From Chromatiales bacterium (GTDB lineage: Bacteria > Pseudomonadota > Gammaproteobacteria > SZUA-152): a DNA stretch of 40,157 nucleotides. Positions within the stretch are counted from its first letter, which is position 1; every line of letters begins with the position of its first letter. Of this stretch, positions 1,989-10,667 are shown in pieces. Made by a program: the position numbers and the translations under genes. The notes under the pieces were generated by a model, which had not been told where the DNA came from, did no database searches, and saw only the letters and a program-made list of their open reading frames with translations. The DNA lies in assembly GCA_026982555.1 (NCBI GenBank), contig JALSGT010000154.1, forward strand, positions 1 through 40,157. Direction: 5' to 3'.

Positions 1989-3302
1989 ATGGCCGCACAA
2001 ACACCGAAGAATCCTGAGAAACACAGTACGTACCTCCCCAAGACTAAAAAGTCGTCCAAGCCGCTTCATGATACACCGATGCTGGATCAGCTGGAGTCCG
2101 GCCCCTGGCCAAGCTTTGTGACCGGTCTGAAGCGTCTGGCCTATGAAGGCAAACATGCCAATATGATGGTCGATTTGCTGGGGCAGCTGGAGCATTCCTA
2201 CAAAACACGGCTGGGCTACTGGAAGGGGGGGACGGTGTCAATTTTCGGTTATGGCGGTGGTATCATTCCGCGTTTTACCGAATTGATGGACGACGATGGC
2301 AAGCCCATGTTTCCCGAGTCCAAAGAATTTCATACGGTGCGGGTACAGCCACCAGCGGGTAACCATTACAGTACGGATATGCTCCGTCAGCTGTCCAACT
2401 CCTGGAACAAGCACGGGTCCGGTCTCATCGCTTTCCATGGCCAGACCGGCAATATCATGTTCATCGGTACCACGACGGATAATACGCAGCACTTTTTCGA
2501 TGAGATCAACAGCTATGGCTGGGATCTCGGCGGTGCCGGGCCGTGTGTGCGCACGGGTATGTCTTGTGTGGGGGCGGCCCGTTGTGAGCAGTCTTGTGCG
2601 AATGAGCAGAAGATTCATCGTTTGCTGGTGAATAATTTTCTTGATGATATGCATCGCCCCGCCCTGCCGTATAAGTTTAAGTTTAAAGTGTCCGGTTGTC
2701 CTAATGATTGCATGAATTCCATTCAGCGTTCTGATCTTGCGGTGATTGGTACCTGGCGTGATGATATGAAGGTGGATCAGGCGGAAGTGCAAAAGTTTGT
2801 GGCGGATAAAGGCCGTAAGTATGTGGTCGATAGTGTAATCAATATGTGCCCTACCCGCGCGCTGTCATTGAATGATGATGATACGCTGGAGGTGGATAAC
2901 CGCAATTGTGTGCGTTGTATGCATTGCATCAATGTGATGACTCGCGCACTCAGCACGGGTGACGATAAAGGTGTCACTCTGTTGCTCGGCGGCAAACGCA
3001 CCCTGAAAATCGGCGATACCATGGGTACGGTGATTGTGCCGTTTATGAAACTGGATACAGAAGAAGATTACGAAAAACTGGTGGAGCTGGCCGAGGAAAT
3101 CATTGATTTCTGGGCGGAGAATGCGCTGGAGCATGAGCGTGTCGGTGAAACCATTGACCGCATCGGCCTGGTGAACTTCCTCGAAGGCATCGACCTCGAA
3201 GTGGACCCCAACATGATTTCCGACGCGCGTCAGAGCAGTTATGTGCGCATGGATACCTGGGATGAAGAGGCAAACAAGTGGAAAGATCGTCAGACAGGTT
3301 AA
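1989..3302 (+). CDS. dsrA: Dissimilatory sulfite reductase alpha subunit
   Basis: 437 aa with siroheme/4Fe-4S motif CVGAARC...CPNDC and ferredoxin-like CVRCMHC; followed by dsrB. Confidence 0.97.
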   Translation: MAAQTPKNPEKHSTYLPKTKKSSKPLHDTPMLDQLESGPWPSFVTGLKRLAYEGKHANMMVDLLGQLEHSYKTRLGYWKGGTVSIFGYGGGIIPRFTELMDDDGKPMFPESKEFHTVRVQPPAGNHYSTDMLRQLSNSWNKHGSGLIAFHGQTGNIMFIGTTTDNTQHFFDEINSYGWDLGGAGPCVRTGMSCVGAARCEQSCANEQKIHRLLVNNFLDDMHRPALPYKFKFKVSGCPNDCMNSIQRSDLAVIGTWRDDMKVDQAEVQKFVADKGRKYVVDSVINMCPTRALSLNDDDTLEVDNRNCVRCMHCINVMTRALSTGDDKGVTLLLGGKRTLKIGDTMGTVIVPFMKLDTEEDYEKLVELAEEIIDFWAENALEHERVGETIDRIGLVNFLEGIDLEVDPNMISDARQSSYVRMDTWDEEANKWKDRQTG

Positions 3303-3353: not shown

Positions 3354-4427
3354 ATGAGCGAACAACCACGCTTTCCCACTGAAAGTGGTGTGCCGGACGG
3401 ATTTCAGTATATGCACCCGGCTTATATCAAAAACTTTGGTAACTGGGCATATCATGATCGCCCGCGCCCCGGTGTATTGCATCATGTTGCCAAGAGCGGT
3501 GATGAAGTCTGGACGGTACGTGTCGGTACCCAGCGTCAGCTCGGCCCTTATGAAATCAATTTATTGTGTGACATTATCGATCAATATGCCGATGGCTATG
3601 TGCGTTTCACCATCCGCTCCAATATGGAAGTGTCGGTGACCGACGAAGCCAAAGTGCAACCGTTAATCGATGCTTTTGAAGACGCCGGTTATCCGGTGGG
3701 GGGTACCGGCAATTCACTGACCATGATTTCCCATACCCAGGGCTGGTTGCATTGCGACATTCCCGGTACGGATGCTTCTGGTGTGGTGAAGGCGTTGATG
3801 GATGAGCTGTACGATGAATTCCGCTCTGAAGACATGCCCAACCGTGTCCATATGACCACGTCCTGCTGTCAGATCAATTGTGGCGGCCAGGGTGACATTG
3901 CCATTAATGTGCAGCATACCAAGCCGCCGAAGATCAATCATGATCTGGTGGCCAATGTGTGTGAGCGTCCTTCGGTGGTGGCCCGCTGCCCGGTGGCGGC
4001 CATTCGTCCCGCTATTGTTAACGGCAAGCCTTCACTGGAAGTAGACGAGAAAAAATGTATCTGTTGCGGTGCCTGTTTCCCGCCCTGCCCGCCCATGCAA
4101 ATCAATGACCCGGAACATTCCAAACTGGCCATCTGGGTCGGAGGCAAACACTCCAACGCCCGCAGCAAACCCATGTTTCATAAACTGGTGGCTGCCGGTA
4201 TTCCCAATAATCCGCCACGCTGGCCGGAAGTCACGGAAGTCGTTAAAAACATTCTCCACACTTACAAGGCTGATGCCAAAAACTGGGAACGCATCGGTGA
4301 CTGGATCGAGCGTATCGGCTGGCCTCGTTTTTTCGAGTTAACTGAACTGCCGTTCACCAAGTTTCATATTGACAACTGGACCGGTGCGCGCAAGTCGCTG
4401 AATGCGTCCACGCATATTCGCTTCTAA
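3354..4427 (+). CDS. dsrB: Dissimilatory sulfite reductase beta subunit
   Basis: 357 aa, MTTSCCQINCGGQGDIAINVQHTKPPKI and ferredoxin motif CICCGACFPPCPP. Confidence 0.97.
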   Translation: MSEQPRFPTESGVPDGFQYMHPAYIKNFGNWAYHDRPRPGVLHHVAKSGDEVWTVRVGTQRQLGPYEINLLCDIIDQYADGYVRFTIRSNMEVSVTDEAKVQPLIDAFEDAGYPVGGTGNSLTMISHTQGWLHCDIPGTDASGVVKALMDELYDEFRSEDMPNRVHMTTSCCQINCGGQGDIAINVQHTKPPKINHDLVANVCERPSVVARCPVAAIRPAIVNGKPSLEVDEKKCICCGACFPPCPPMQINDPEHSKLAIWVGGKHSNARSKPMFHKLVAAGIPNNPPRWPEVTEVVKNILHTYKADAKNWERIGDWIERIGWPRFFELTELPFTKFHIDNWTGARKSLNASTHIRF

Positions 4428-4446: not shown

Positions 4447-4839
4447 ATGAAATTTTCCGTCATGATCAGCGAAGGCCCGTACACCCATCAGGCATCAGAC
4501 ACAGCCTATAACTTCACCAAAGCCGCACTGGAAGACGGGCATGAGTGTTTTCGTATCTTTTTTTATCATGACGGTGTCAACAACGGCACCCGCCTGGCCT
4601 CTCCCCCACAGGACGACCGCAATATCGTCAATCGCTGGTCTGCGCTGGCAAAAGAACACAAACTGGACCTTGTACTTTGTGTTGCTGCGGCACAACGTCG
4701 TGGCATTGCCGATGCCGATGAAGCCAAACGTAACGGCAAAAATGCTGACAACATTGCTCCCGGCTTTCGCATTTCCGGTTTGGGCCAGTTAATCGAGGCC
4801 GGCATCCAGAGTGACCGTCTGATCACCTTTGGCGATTAA
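4447..4839 (+). CDS. dsrE: Sulfurtransferase DsrE
   Basis: ATG at 4447; 130 aa; Cys at residue 78 in LVLCVAAAQRRGI, DsrE fold. Confidence 0.94.
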   Translation: MKFSVMISEGPYTHQASDTAYNFTKAALEDGHECFRIFFYHDGVNNGTRLASPPQDDRNIVNRWSALAKEHKLDLVLCVAAAQRRGIADADEAKRNGKNADNIAPGFRISGLGQLIEAGIQSDRLITFGD

Positions 4840-4881: not shown

Positions 4882-5289
4882 ATGTCTGAAACCAAAAAAT
4901 TTTTATACGTTAACCGCAAGGCTCCCTATGGGACGATTTATGCGCTGGAAGCACTGGAGGTCGTGTTGATCGGGGCCGCCTTTGAGCAGGATGTTTCCCT
5001 CGCCTTTCTGGATGACGGTGTTTACCAGATCACCAAAGGACAAGACACCAAAGACCTGGGAATGAAAAACTTTTCACCCACTTACAAGGCGCTGGGTGAT
5101 TACGATGTCAACAAAATTTACGTTGAACAGGAATCACTGGACGCACGAGGCCTGACGCTGGATGACCTGTTACCCCTGACCTGGGAAGACGAAGACGACG
5201 ACTGGGCCGAAAAGGATTCCATCAAAGTGATTTCTGCCACTGAAATGGCAAAAATTATGGAACAATCCGACGTTGTATTCAGTTTTTAG
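4882..5289 (+). CDS. dsrF: DsrF, subunit of DsrEFH
   Basis: KKFLYVNRKAPYGTIYALEALEVVLIGAAFEQDVSLAFLDDGVYQ..., directly after dsrE. Confidence 0.94.
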   Translation: MSETKKFLYVNRKAPYGTIYALEALEVVLIGAAFEQDVSLAFLDDGVYQITKGQDTKDLGMKNFSPTYKALGDYDVNKIYVEQESLDARGLTLDDLLPLTWEDEDDDWAEKDSIKVISATEMAKIMEQSDVVFSF

Positions 5290-5302
5290 GAAAGGATCTG
5301 AT

Positions 5303-5611
5303 ATGTCACAACTACACACGGTTAACAAATCACCTCTTGAGCGAAATGCGCTGGAGTCAGCGATCACCCACGCAGTAAAAGGCAATGCCTTGCTGATGAT
5401 TGAAGACGGTGTTTACGGTGCCATGCAAGGCACGCACAAATCAGCCATGGTTTCTGATGCAATGAGCGACATAGCCTTTTATGTCATGGGGCCCGACCTC
5501 AAGGCGCGCGGAATTGATGAGGCACGCATTATTGATGGTATCAAAATTGTGGACTACAGCGGTTTTGTGGCACTGGTTGCAGAGTATGACGTAACACAGT
5601 CCTGGTTATAA
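5303..5611 (+). CDS. dsrH: DsrH, subunit of DsrEFH (no cysteine)
   Basis: ATG at 5303; 102 aa MSQLHTVNKSPLERNALESAITHA...QSWL, DsrH/TusB family. Confidence 0.93.
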   Translation: MSQLHTVNKSPLERNALESAITHAVKGNALLMIEDGVYGAMQGTHKSAMVSDAMSDIAFYVMGPDLKARGIDEARIIDGIKIVDYSGFVALVAEYDVTQSWL

Positions 5612-5670: not shown

Positions 5671-6003
5671 ATGGCCCTGGAAGTAGGTGGAAAAACAGTC
5701 GAAACGGATGAAGAGGGTTACCTGGAAAACCGTGACGAATGGAACATGGATATTGCCAATGCCATTGCCGTCGCCGAAAACCTGGAAATGTCCGACAGCC
5801 ACTGGGAAGTAGTGAACTTCCTGCGTGAATATTATGAGGAATACCAGATTGCACCGGCTGTGCGTGTGCTCACCAAAGCCATCGGCAAAAAACTGGGCAA
5901 GGACAAAGGCAACAGTAAATATCTGTATGAATTGTTTCCTTATGGCCCGGCCAAGCAGGCCTGCAAAATTGCCGGGCTGCCCAAACCCACAGGCTGCGTT
6001 TGA
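5671..6003 (+). CDS. dsrC: DsrC sulfur carrier protein
   Basis: 110 aa ending in the canonical two-Cys arm KQACKIAGLPKPTGCV. Confidence 0.97.
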   Translation: MALEVGGKTVETDEEGYLENRDEWNMDIANAIAVAENLEMSDSHWEVVNFLREYYEEYQIAPAVRVLTKAIGKKLGKDKGNSKYLYELFPYGPAKQACKIAGLPKPTGCV

Positions 6004-6031
6004 TTTTCCGGGGGCTGGCTATCAAGTTAGC

Positions 6032-6120
6032 GGCTCTTGTCCCCATGCTCCGCGTGGGGATGCATACAGTGCTGTCACTGTATGATGATACAGGCTCCCA
6101 CGCAGGAGAGCATGGGAACC
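6032..6120. repeat. Palindromic repeat between dsrC and dsrM (copy A)
   Basis: GGCTCTTGTCCCCATGCTC...GAGCATGGGAACC with an internal perfect 9-bp hairpin CATACAGTG-CTGT-CACTGTATG (6063-6084). Second copy in opposite orientation at 37728-37797. Confidence 0.75.
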
Positions 6121-6233
6121 AGGATATAAAACTTAACGGCTTAACTTAATGGCAGTAGACTGAGAGCCTGCGTAGCGGAACATTTGTTTTTTATTGGCAT
6201 CACTCATTCTTACCATTATCACCAGGTTAATCA

Positions 6234-6950
6234 ATGACGCTTTCAGTGGTTTACGCCATCCTTTTTTACGCTGCAACACTGCTGCTTGTTGTGGGCGTGG
6301 TGCGTAAAATAATTATTTATGCGCGCACGCCTGCGCCTTTAAAAATACCGGTGACTCCGGCTCCCACCACCAAGGCTGGTGTTGTCTGGCGCATGACCAA
6401 AGAAGTGACGGTCTTTCAAAGTTTGTTCAAAGCCAACAAATGGACCTGGCTGTTTGGCTGGATGTTTCATGTTGCACTGGCCTTCGTCCTCTTTCGCCAT
6501 TTACGATATTTCCAGGAGCCCGTGTGGGCCATTGTTGCTCTGATACAACCCATCGGCCAGTACGCCGGTTTTGCCATGTTAGCGGGTCTGACCGGTTTGT
6601 GGGCACGGCGTTTTCTGGTTGATCGCGTACGTTACATCACCAGCCTGTCCGACCATTTGATGTTGGCCCTGCTGGTGGCTATCGGCCTCAGCGGACTGGC
6701 TATCAAATATCTGGCACATACTGATATCGTGGCACTGAAAACATGGGTGCTGGGTCTGATGTATTTTGATCTGCAACCCTTACCTTCAGATATTTTTGTG
6801 CTGTTGCATCTGGGGCTGGTGATTATTCTGATGGTGATTTTTCCCATCAGCAAACTGTTGCATGTGCCGGGCCTGTTTTTTATGCCCACACGCAATCAGG
6901 TTGATAATCCGCGTGAAGTGCGTCACACAGCGGGCTGGACAGCAAAATAG
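6234..6950 (+). CDS. dsrM: DsrM, membrane cytochrome b-type subunit of DsrMKJOP
   Basis: 238 aa, multiple TM helices, NarI-like; position between dsrC and dsrK. Confidence 0.92.
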   Translation: MTLSVVYAILFYAATLLLVVGVVRKIIIYARTPAPLKIPVTPAPTTKAGVVWRMTKEVTVFQSLFKANKWTWLFGWMFHVALAFVLFRHLRYFQEPVWAIVALIQPIGQYAGFAMLAGLTGLWARRFLVDRVRYITSLSDHLMLALLVAIGLSGLAIKYLAHTDIVALKTWVLGLMYFDLQPLPSDIFVLLHLGLVIILMVIFPISKLLHVPGLFFMPTRNQVDNPREVRHTAGWTAK

Positions 6951-7111: not shown

Positions 7112-8614
7112 GTGACCGCCAAATTCGATACGCCCGAGTTGTTTAAAAATATCGAGATCATCGATACACCAAAATATGAGGTGGATTCGATGGCGCACAG
7201 CAGCCCGTATCCGGCCAAGGCCCAGCACAATGAAAAACTCGGGTTTCCCGGTGAGCTGGTGGACAACTGGGAAGAAAAAGCCGTTACCCGCCTGGGTGAA
7301 CTGGTGGACGGCTCCCGTGCCCTGCGCACCTTCCTCGACAGTTGCGTAAAGTGTGGCGCCTGCACTGACAAGTGTCATTATTACCTCGGCACCAAAGACC
7401 CCAAAAACATGCCCGTGGCACGTCAGGATTTATTACGCAGCATCTACCGCCGGTATTACACTTTCGCAGGCAAATATTTCCCCAGGCTCGTCGGTGCCCG
7501 CGACATGGATAAAAGCGTACTGGATGAATGGTATAGCTACTTCCATCAATGCTCGCAATGCCGTCGCTGCTCCGTATTTTGTCCCTACGGTATCGACACC
7601 GCCGAAATCTCCATGGCCGCGCGTGACATCATGGACACCGTGGGCCACGGCCAGAAATACTGTAACGAAATTCTGGGTAAGTTGCAGACCATCGGCAACA
7701 ACCTGGGGCTGCCCGAAAAAGCGCTGATTAACACACTGGAAGACCTGGAAGAAGAAGTAGAAGAAGACACCGGTGTTGCGGTGAAATATCCGGTGGATGT
7801 GAAAGGTGCTGATGTATTGCTCGTTGTACCCTCTGCTGATTTTTTTGCCGAACCACACATTGATGGTCTGATTGGTTACGGCAAGGTTTTCCATCAGGCG
7901 GGAATCAGCTGGACGTTGTCCTCGTATGCCTCCGAGGCGGCGAATTTTTCCATGTTTATCGGCAGTGGCGATAACCTGAAAAAAGTGGCCCAGCGCATTC
8001 GGGATGCTGCCGAAGAACTGGGCGTTAAACGTATTATCGTCGGCGAATGTGGCCATGCCTGGCGTGTGGCCTACAGCTTCTGGAACACATTGGTGGGCCC
8101 GTTTGATTTTCTTGATCCCAACTATCCTGCACCGCAGCATATCGTCGAATTTACTTATGATCTGATTCAGCGCGGTGCCTTAAATCTTGACAAGGAAGCC
8201 AATGATCACCGGCGCATTACCTTTCATGACTCCTGCAATGTGGCGCGCGCCTCGCGCATGGGCAACATACCCGGCGGACAATTTATTTTACCCCGTGCAT
8301 TAATCACCGCCTCGGCCAATCACTTTTTTGATATGTCCCCTGAAACTATTCATGAAAATACATTTTGTTGTGGCGGTGGCGGCGGCTTGCTGACCGATGA
8401 CCTGATGGAAATTCGCATCAAAGGTGCCATGCCGCGTATGCAGGCATTGAAGCAGGTGGTGGATGAACACGATGTCAACGCCATGGTGGCCATTTGCGCC
8501 ATTTGCAAAGCTCAGTTCAGCAAAGCGTTGCCCGCGTATCAATTCCCCATGGACATGATTACCAGCTTGCATCAGGTGGTTGGCGATGCCATCCAGCTGG
8601 GGACCAAAGACTAA
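7112..8614 (+). CDS. dsrK: DsrK, HdrD-like iron-sulfur protein
   Basis: GTG start; two 4Fe-4S motifs (CVKCGACTDKCHYY, CSQCRRCSVFCP) and CCG domains (HENTFCCGGGGG). Confidence 0.95.
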   Translation: MTAKFDTPELFKNIEIIDTPKYEVDSMAHSSPYPAKAQHNEKLGFPGELVDNWEEKAVTRLGELVDGSRALRTFLDSCVKCGACTDKCHYYLGTKDPKNMPVARQDLLRSIYRRYYTFAGKYFPRLVGARDMDKSVLDEWYSYFHQCSQCRRCSVFCPYGIDTAEISMAARDIMDTVGHGQKYCNEILGKLQTIGNNLGLPEKALINTLEDLEEEVEEDTGVAVKYPVDVKGADVLLVVPSADFFAEPHIDGLIGYGKVFHQAGISWTLSSYASEAANFSMFIGSGDNLKKVAQRIRDAAEELGVKRIIVGECGHAWRVAYSFWNTLVGPFDFLDPNYPAPQHIVEFTYDLIQRGALNLDKEANDHRRITFHDSCNVARASRMGNIPGGQFILPRALITASANHFFDMSPETIHENTFCCGGGGGLLTDDLMEIRIKGAMPRMQALKQVVDEHDVNAMVAICAICKAQFSKALPAYQFPMDMITSLHQVVGDAIQLGTKD

Positions 8615-8693
8615 AAATGCAGAGTGGGCAGTGCCCACCCTGCACAAGATGGGCGGAGCGCATTCAACACAAGTGGATCAGGAGACTGACGCT

Positions 8694-10667
8694 ATGGCAA
8701 CACCGGCAGATAAAGTAAAAACACACACATTTCGTAAATACAAAGATGGCGACCACGAAGTCACGCGTTGGAGCGAGCAGATTTTCGATGGTGACCGCAC
8801 CCACAAATGTCCTACTTATGTGCATCAAACACCACCATGCCAGGGCAGCTGCCCTTCCGGGGAAGACATTCGCGGCTGGCTGAACATCGTGCGCGGTATC
8901 GAAAAACCTGCCGACGGTATGGACTGGCAGGAATATGCTTTTCGGCGTTCCACCCAGGCCAATCCTTTTCCTTCGGTCATGGGCCGCGTCTGTCCTGCAC
9001 CTTGTCAGGATGGTTGCAACCGCAATCAAGTGGAAGACTTTGTGGGCATTAATGCCGTCGAACAATTCATCGGCGACAGCGCACTGGATGCCGGTCTTGA
9101 ATTTACCCCCGGCGCCGACACCGGAAAAAAAGTCGCCATCATCGGCGGTGGTCCTTGCGGATTATCCGCCGCGTATCAATTACGCCTGAAAGGCCATGCC
9201 TGCACGATTTTTGACGATCACGAAGACCTGGGCGGCATGATGATGTACGGCATTCCCGGCTATCGCACCCCGCGTGATGTGCTGCACGGCGAAATGAACC
9301 GCATCATCAATATGGGTGTGGAAACAAAATTAAAAACCCGCGTGGGTAAAGACATTACCCTGAAACAACTGGAAAAAGATTTTGACGCTGTACTGTTTGC
9401 CATCGGCGCACAATCCGGTCGGGATCTGCCAGTGGATAATTTCAGTGAAGCCAGCAATTGCCTCTCCGGCGTTGCCTTCCTTGCCGCATTTAACGAAGGC
9501 CGCCTGAAAGGTGTCACCGGCAAGGTGGTGGTGATTGGCGGTGGCGATACCTCTATCGACGTGGCCTCCGTGGCCCGCCGCATCGGCAAGATCACCGATG
9601 TTCACGAAAATGACAGACCGGAGCATATCATCCTCGGGCAGACGGCTCACGATGTGGCGGGAGTGGCCAACCGCGAAGGTGCAGACGTCACCCTGCTGTC
9701 GCGCCATCCCGTCTCCAACATGACAGCAGCCCAACATGAAATAGATGATGCCACCCGCGAAGGCGTGGAAATTATCGATTCCATCGACCCGGTTGCCGTG
9801 ATCATGGGTGATAATGGTCGCGCCAAAGCCCTGCGCGTACGCAAGCTAAAATGGGAAGGCAAGAATATGATGCCCATCGAGGATTCTGAATACGACATCG
9901 ATGCTGATCTCATCGTCTCCGCTATCGGTCAAACCGGCAACCTGAAAGGCATGGAAGAATTTGGTAATGACCGCGGCCTGATCGATGCAGACAAAAACTT
10001 TCAAGTCCCCAATAAACCCGGCTTCTTTGTTGCAGGCGACATCGTGCAACCCCATCTGTTAACCACGGTGATCGGTCAGGCATCGGTGGCAGCCGAAAGC
10101 ATCGACCACTACCTGAAAAATGAAGAAGCCGGTAAACGTCCAAAAGTGGACGTGCATCATTTCAACCTGCTGAACAAACTGCGTGAAACCCATCATGAGC
10201 CTGCACACTTTACCCCTGAAGGTGACGCAAAAGTGCGTGGCATTGACCGAGGCCTGCATGGCACCGCAGATGCTGACTTTGCAATTCATAACTACGAAGA
10301 TCGCTCCGCACAGCAGATAATTTCTGCGGACAAACTGTTCCTCGGGCACTTCGCCCACGAAGCACGCCATGTGCGCACGGAAGACGTACCCGGCTCTGAC
10401 GAAGTATTGGGTCACTTTGAAGAACGCATTCATGCATTATCCGAAGAGGATACCGTTGCCGAAGCCAAACGCTGCATGAGTTGCGGCATGTGCTTTGAAT
10501 GTGACAACTGCATTATTTACTGTCCGCAGGATGCCGTGTTCAAAGTGAAAAAAGAGGAATCGACAATGGGACGCTACGTCGCTACCGATTATTCCAAATG
10601 CATCGGCTGTCACATCTGCGCGGATGTCTGCCCCACCGGTTACATCCAGATGGGTCTGGGCGAATAA
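8694..10667 (+). CDS. dsrL: DsrL, NAD(P)H-dependent flavin/Fe-S oxidoreductase
   Basis: ATG 8694 preceded by AGGAG (the ORF track extends to 8580, overlapping dsrK). GltD-like FAD motif IIGGGPCGLSAAYQLRLKG, second GGGDTSIDVA, C-terminal ferredoxin domain CMSCGMCFECDNC...CIGCHICADVCP. Confidence 0.94.
   Translation: MATPADKVKTHTFRKYKDGDHEVTRWSEQIFDGDRTHKCPTYVHQTPPCQGSCPSGEDIRGWLNIVRGIEKPADGMDWQEYAFRRSTQANPFPSVMGRVCPAPCQDGCNRNQVEDFVGINAVEQFIGDSALDAGLEFTPGADTGKKVAIIGGGPCGLSAAYQLRLKGHACTIFDDHEDLGGMMMYGIPGYRTPRDVLHGEMNRIINMGVETKLKTRVGKDITLKQLEKDFDAVLFAIGAQSGRDLPVDNFSEASNCLSGVAFLAAFNEGRLKGVTGKVVVIGGGDTSIDVASVARRIGKITDVHENDRPEHIILGQTAHDVAGVANREGADVTLLSRHPVSNMTAAQHEIDDATREGVEIIDSIDPVAVIMGDNGRAKALRVRKLKWEGKNMMPIEDSEYDIDADLIVSAIGQTGNLKGMEEFGNDRGLIDADKNFQVPNKPGFFVAGDIVQPHLLTTVIGQASVAAESIDHYLKNEEAGKRPKVDVHHFNLLNKLRETHHEPAHFTPEGDAKVRGIDRGLHGTADADFAIHNYEDRSAQQIISADKLFLGHFAHEARHVRTEDVPGSDEVLGHFEERIHALSEEDTVAEAKRCMSCGMCFECDNCIIYCPQDAVFKVKKEESTMGRYVATDYSKCIGCHICADVCPTGYIQMGLGE

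Follow-up and report, generated by a model that had tools for sequence, protein, structure and literature searches.

The DsrH subunit encoded by a Chromatiales bacterium carries alanine at position 20, the site of a cysteine thought to be essential, and across 126 aligned loci this cysteine appears, from the sequence trees, to have been replaced independently in about nine lineages (8-9, depending on the tree), by alanine or valine and never by serine; this repeated natural swap is the useful result of the analysis. DsrEFH supplies sulfur to reverse-Dsr, one of the main pathways by which microbes oxidize sulfur, and we found no report in the open literature of natural loss of Cys20 from a type I DsrH accompanied by oxidative DsrAB. 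The reading we favor, with a probability of roughly one half, is that the complex is a working type I DsrEFH in which DsrH residue 20 is a small apolar site for packing or docking, usually filled by cysteine and swapped here to alanine (rarely, elsewhere, to valine).

The window, that is, the whole 40,157-nucleotide stretch of DNA that was analyzed, carries on its + strand the gene order dsrA-dsrB-dsrE-dsrF-dsrH-dsrC-dsrM-dsrK-dsrL-like, followed by candidate dsrJOP-type open frames. Downstream of dsrA (1989..3302; TIGR02064, 587 bits) and dsrB (3354..4427; TIGR02066, 516 bits) lie the three adjacent genes dsrE (4447..4839, 130 amino acids; TIGR03012), dsrF (4882..5289, 135 amino acids; TIGR03010) and dsrH (5303..5611, 102 amino acids; TIGR03011), whose products scored 162, 111 and 89 bits, each over its curated type I cut-off (89, 94 and 49 bits, respectively). 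They are linked to dsrA, dsrB and a dsrC (5671..6003, 110 amino acids) whose product exceeded its own curated cut-off (TIGR03342, 167 bits) and has both arm cysteines, Cys98 and Cys109. The gene at 6234..6950 was named dsrM from its best match, NF038037, at 146 bits and thus under the curated cut-off of 300; dsrK (7112..8614; NF045796, 574 bits) was read from the GTG start at 7112 that gives the longest frame; and the dsrL-like gene (8580..10667), encoding an NAD(P)-binding iron-sulfur flavoprotein, was named from NF009410 (711 bits) and its operon position, its open frame possibly starting too early at 8580. Judged by its sequences, the order of its genes and its DsrC partner, the complex is a type I DsrEFH, and we infer that the operon is of the reverse-Dsr type, working in the direction of sulfur oxidation. 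Between dsrC and dsrM, an element of about 100 bases with inverted-repeat ends (6025-6130) gave 13 matches in its own genome at 71-100% identity; with about a dozen copies, variably diverged, it resembles a dispersed repeat of the REP or MITE kind that lies within the dsr operon. Upstream, the dsr genes are preceded by the final part of a gene for an RND-type efflux pump (82-993), named by reading, and by a P-II-like regulator gene (945-1310), named from weak model matches.

Three known systems were compared with this complex. The type I DsrEFH of Allochromatium vinosum (2HY5) has the same subunits, the same gene order (dsrABEFHC), DsrE-Cys78 and the DsrC arm cysteines; the window differs from it in DsrH Ala20 and an extra DsrE Cys34. 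The E. coli complex TusBCD (PDB 2D1P) shares the fold and subunits, and its TusB, 30% identical in the structural match, likewise lacks a cysteine at the matching site, having leucine there and a one-residue gap before it; TusD-Cys78 is given as the only essential cysteine of TusBCD (Numata 2006, as cited in PMC3397948). Unlike the complex of the window, TusBCD serves tRNA thiolation and works without DsrAB. It is recognized by a genome without dsrAB and a TusE without the first arm cysteine, and since the window has adjacent dsrAB and a DsrC with both cysteines, Cys98 included, its complex is not TusBCD. The type II DsrEFH of cable bacteria works via one DsrE cysteine, Cys67 (PMC13293266, PMC13047784), and its DsrH-like protein lacks Cys20 (PMC13047784). 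These proteins are very distant in sequence and are found with reductive DsrAB, whereas the proteins of the window score over the cut-offs of the curated type I models, so a type II assignment does not apply. Absence of Cys20 as such was therefore already known from E. coli TusB and from the distant type II complex.

At the level of the protein, DsrH aligned without gaps to A. vinosum DsrH (2HY5_C) over residues 1-102 (E about 1e-32, 53% identity), with Ala20 facing Cys20, and its AlphaFold2 model (mean pLDDT 92.5) lay within 0.7 Å rmsd of 2HY5_C, residue 20 falling in the first helix (alpha-1, residues 16-23). Codon 20 is GCG (5360..5362). Neither DsrH nor DsrF contains a cysteine (zero in the 135 residues of the latter), and DsrE has two (34 and 78) beside the two of DsrC. 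An earlier note, covering 4882-5611 and so DsrF and DsrH only, with DsrE and DsrC outside, had described exactly these residues, including Ala20 (gcg) and all four cysteines, and its description stands. Its interpretation does so only in part. The cysteine-free DsrF that it pointed out is the norm (116 of 126 rows), and it had proposed that a relay through DsrE-Cys78 only would be a natural variant. In A. vinosum, DsrE-Cys78 alone is persulfidated, sulfur was never found on DsrF or DsrH, and the DsrH C20S exchange left sulfur binding by DsrE and transfer to DsrC unaffected in vitro (PMC3397948); the proposed relay is no variant but what the accepted model already describes.

To place Ala20 in a wider frame, an even sample of 321 Gammaproteobacteria was used, in which DsrH was present in 136 genomes and dsrA in 102. 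DsrH was read in 110 loci, 97 of them with dsrA or dsrB on the same stretch, and residue 20 in these 97 was Cys in 84, Ala in 12, Val in 1 and Ser in none; the non-Cys rows (13/97, 13%) fell in seven families besides that of the window. Ten further dsrAB-linked loci from a phylum-level sample comprised 8 Cys, 1 Ala and 1 Val, and Cys20 is retained in about 86% of dsrAB-linked DsrH. Cysteine is thus the usual residue, as the earlier note had stated; the alternative that would have counted against the note, a common absence of Cys20, holds in part, for the 13% minority of dsrAB-linked DsrH in the class sample. Given this minority, Cys20 was not treated as defining type I. Loci without dsrAB on the stretch mostly had Cys20, except for TusB-like sequences, most of which showed a gap of one residue with Leu, Met or Gln at the site, like E. 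coli TusB. Outside the class of the window, the phylum sample contains many dsrEFH sets (L212-L238 and related loci) that had no dsrAB or dsrC inside the few kilobases read and nevertheless keep DsrH Cys20. In one genome (L149), the start region of DsrH was odd (SRAELGDVMAGPYENSNL), possibly through a frame or assembly problem.

The number of replacements was counted on quick maximum-likelihood trees (LG+G4), the first of them built from DsrB, DsrE, DsrF and DsrC with 126 rows and with DsrH excluded. There the Cys/non-Cys state required 9 changes, a number that the starred branches by themselves already demand; such counts carry no direction, and loss of cysteine is the simpler one because Cys is present in 102 of the 126 rows. 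Constraining all non-Cys rows to one clade was rejected (p-AU 0.00014). Spread of one Ala20 dsrH by transfer between lineages also fails as an explanation, since the DsrH tree (column 20 removed) needed 8 changes and the DsrEFH tree 9, seven of the latter forced by starred branches.

Apart from the 102 cysteines, position 20 held Ala in 22 rows and Val in 2, with no Ser, Gly or Thr. Starting from the cysteine codons TGC and TGT, a single base change gives Ser or Gly, and two are needed for Ala or Val. That alanine was reached repeatedly in two steps while one-step serine is missing suggests that selection favors a small apolar side chain. The natural alanine is of note because the serine exchange at this site in A. 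vinosum (C20S) abolished sulfur oxidation in vivo and left sulfur globules undegraded (PMC3397948), a result that the earlier note had overlooked. In the open literature found, this serine mutant is the only one reported, with no C20A mutant of DsrH. Under the favored reading, sulfur would pass from a TusA-type carrier, the presumed donor here, to DsrE-Cys78 and then, as established for relatives, would move to the penultimate cysteine of DsrC (Cys109 here) and on to DsrAB. DsrH would take no part in the thiol chemistry and would serve as a structural or docking subunit, residue 20 on helix alpha-1 probably calling for a small apolar side chain to pack rather than for a thiol; the failure of C20S in A. 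vinosum may then come from the polar serine and not from loss of a sulfur-carrying thiol. We put it slightly below even odds that the in vivo need for Cys20 is that of a small apolar site tolerating Ala or Val but not Ser, and that the accepted reading of Cys20 as a functional or active-site cysteine is wrong. Packing alone would explain the large majority of cysteine weakly.

Explanations that take Ala20 as an error or as a sign of decay can be judged within the family of the window, for which 24 genomes were available here, 20 of them with one DsrH each. The source of the window is a metagenome assembly, 73% complete, and the earlier note had considered a read-level error at codon 20. Alanine, however, was present in 9/9 dsrH-bearing genomes of the genus, encoded by GCG, GCC or GCT, and since nine genomes agree with varied codons, Ala20 is not a read error; the 11/11 genomes of the five remaining genera in the family had Cys20, encoded by TGC or TGT. 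Ala20 also occurred in seven loci (L002-L008) of a separate GTDB contig collection, probably in part from the same species, and in G102 and G154, two genomes from other families that each consist of a single contig, leaving an assembly or sequencing artifact with a negligible probability. A decaying dsrH, or neutral drift in a dispensable subunit, could draw on the fact that DsrH evolves fastest of four proteins in the genus (pairwise pN/pS 0.137 vs 0.071-0.086). Yet this value lies far under 1 and does not exceed that of a Cys20 sister genus (0.162), indicating purifying selection in both, and the site takes only Ala or Val, in an intact frame and a retained operon, so that we regard decay or drift as improbable. 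No second DsrH, Cys20-bearing or otherwise, was found in the genome of the window or in any family genome searched, and the near-complete genus genomes G016 and G023 (both 99%) likewise had a single DsrH.

A more serious competitor, which we hold less probable than the packing or docking reading though well within the plausible range, is that Cys20 is a true functional thiol in Cys-type complexes, making a redox or mixed-disulfide contact with a donor, and that Ala-type complexes have changed the donor or the contact. The in vivo phenotype of C20S speaks for it, as do its authors, who called that result surprising and suggested that Cys20 contacts an unknown sulfur donor (PMC3397948), and so does the status of cysteine as the majority state. 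In an exploratory scan of nine pairs, too few to survive correction for several hundred columns, DsrH Leu21 also tended to change together with Cys20 (about 4 of 9 independent pairs, none the other way round), a trend that does not reach significance once multiple testing is allowed for. A lost TusA/DsrE2 donor module was considered and not seen: tusA and dsrE2 stand side by side in the genome of the window (contig 75) and in sister genera, and a DsrE2-family gene was present in every dsrAB genome of the class sample that lacks Cys20, both of which count against a changed donor. No rhodanese gene beside tusA differed between genera among the matches listed. Nor did any of the most enriched DsrE, DsrF, DsrH or DsrC columns examined in the exploratory scan change in all nine lineages, as a compensating residue might, and the restriction of substitutes to Ala and Val also argues against a lost thiol function. 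The thiol might instead have been relocated, with DsrE-Cys34 (codon 4546-4548) standing in for it. This cysteine was found in 8/9 Ala20 genomes of the genus, with Ile in every sister genus, but L041, the earliest-branching Ala20 member (sequence features as in L007), has Ile34, Cys34 was absent from all other non-Cys20 lineages, and two loci (L168 and L213) carry DsrE Cys34 alongside DsrH Cys20. These observations rule out Cys34 as a general relocated thiol and mark it as a later change within the genus, derived there and gained after DsrH Cys20 was lost; that it stands in for the DsrH thiol is improbable.

The role of DsrH-Cys20 has been a question since 2012, because the serine mutant fails in vivo yet works in vitro. 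The natural series of alanine and valine makes this role directly testable through a comparison of C20A, C20V and C20S, and in natural complexes with so few cysteines the chemistry of DsrE-Cys78 can be traced with little background.
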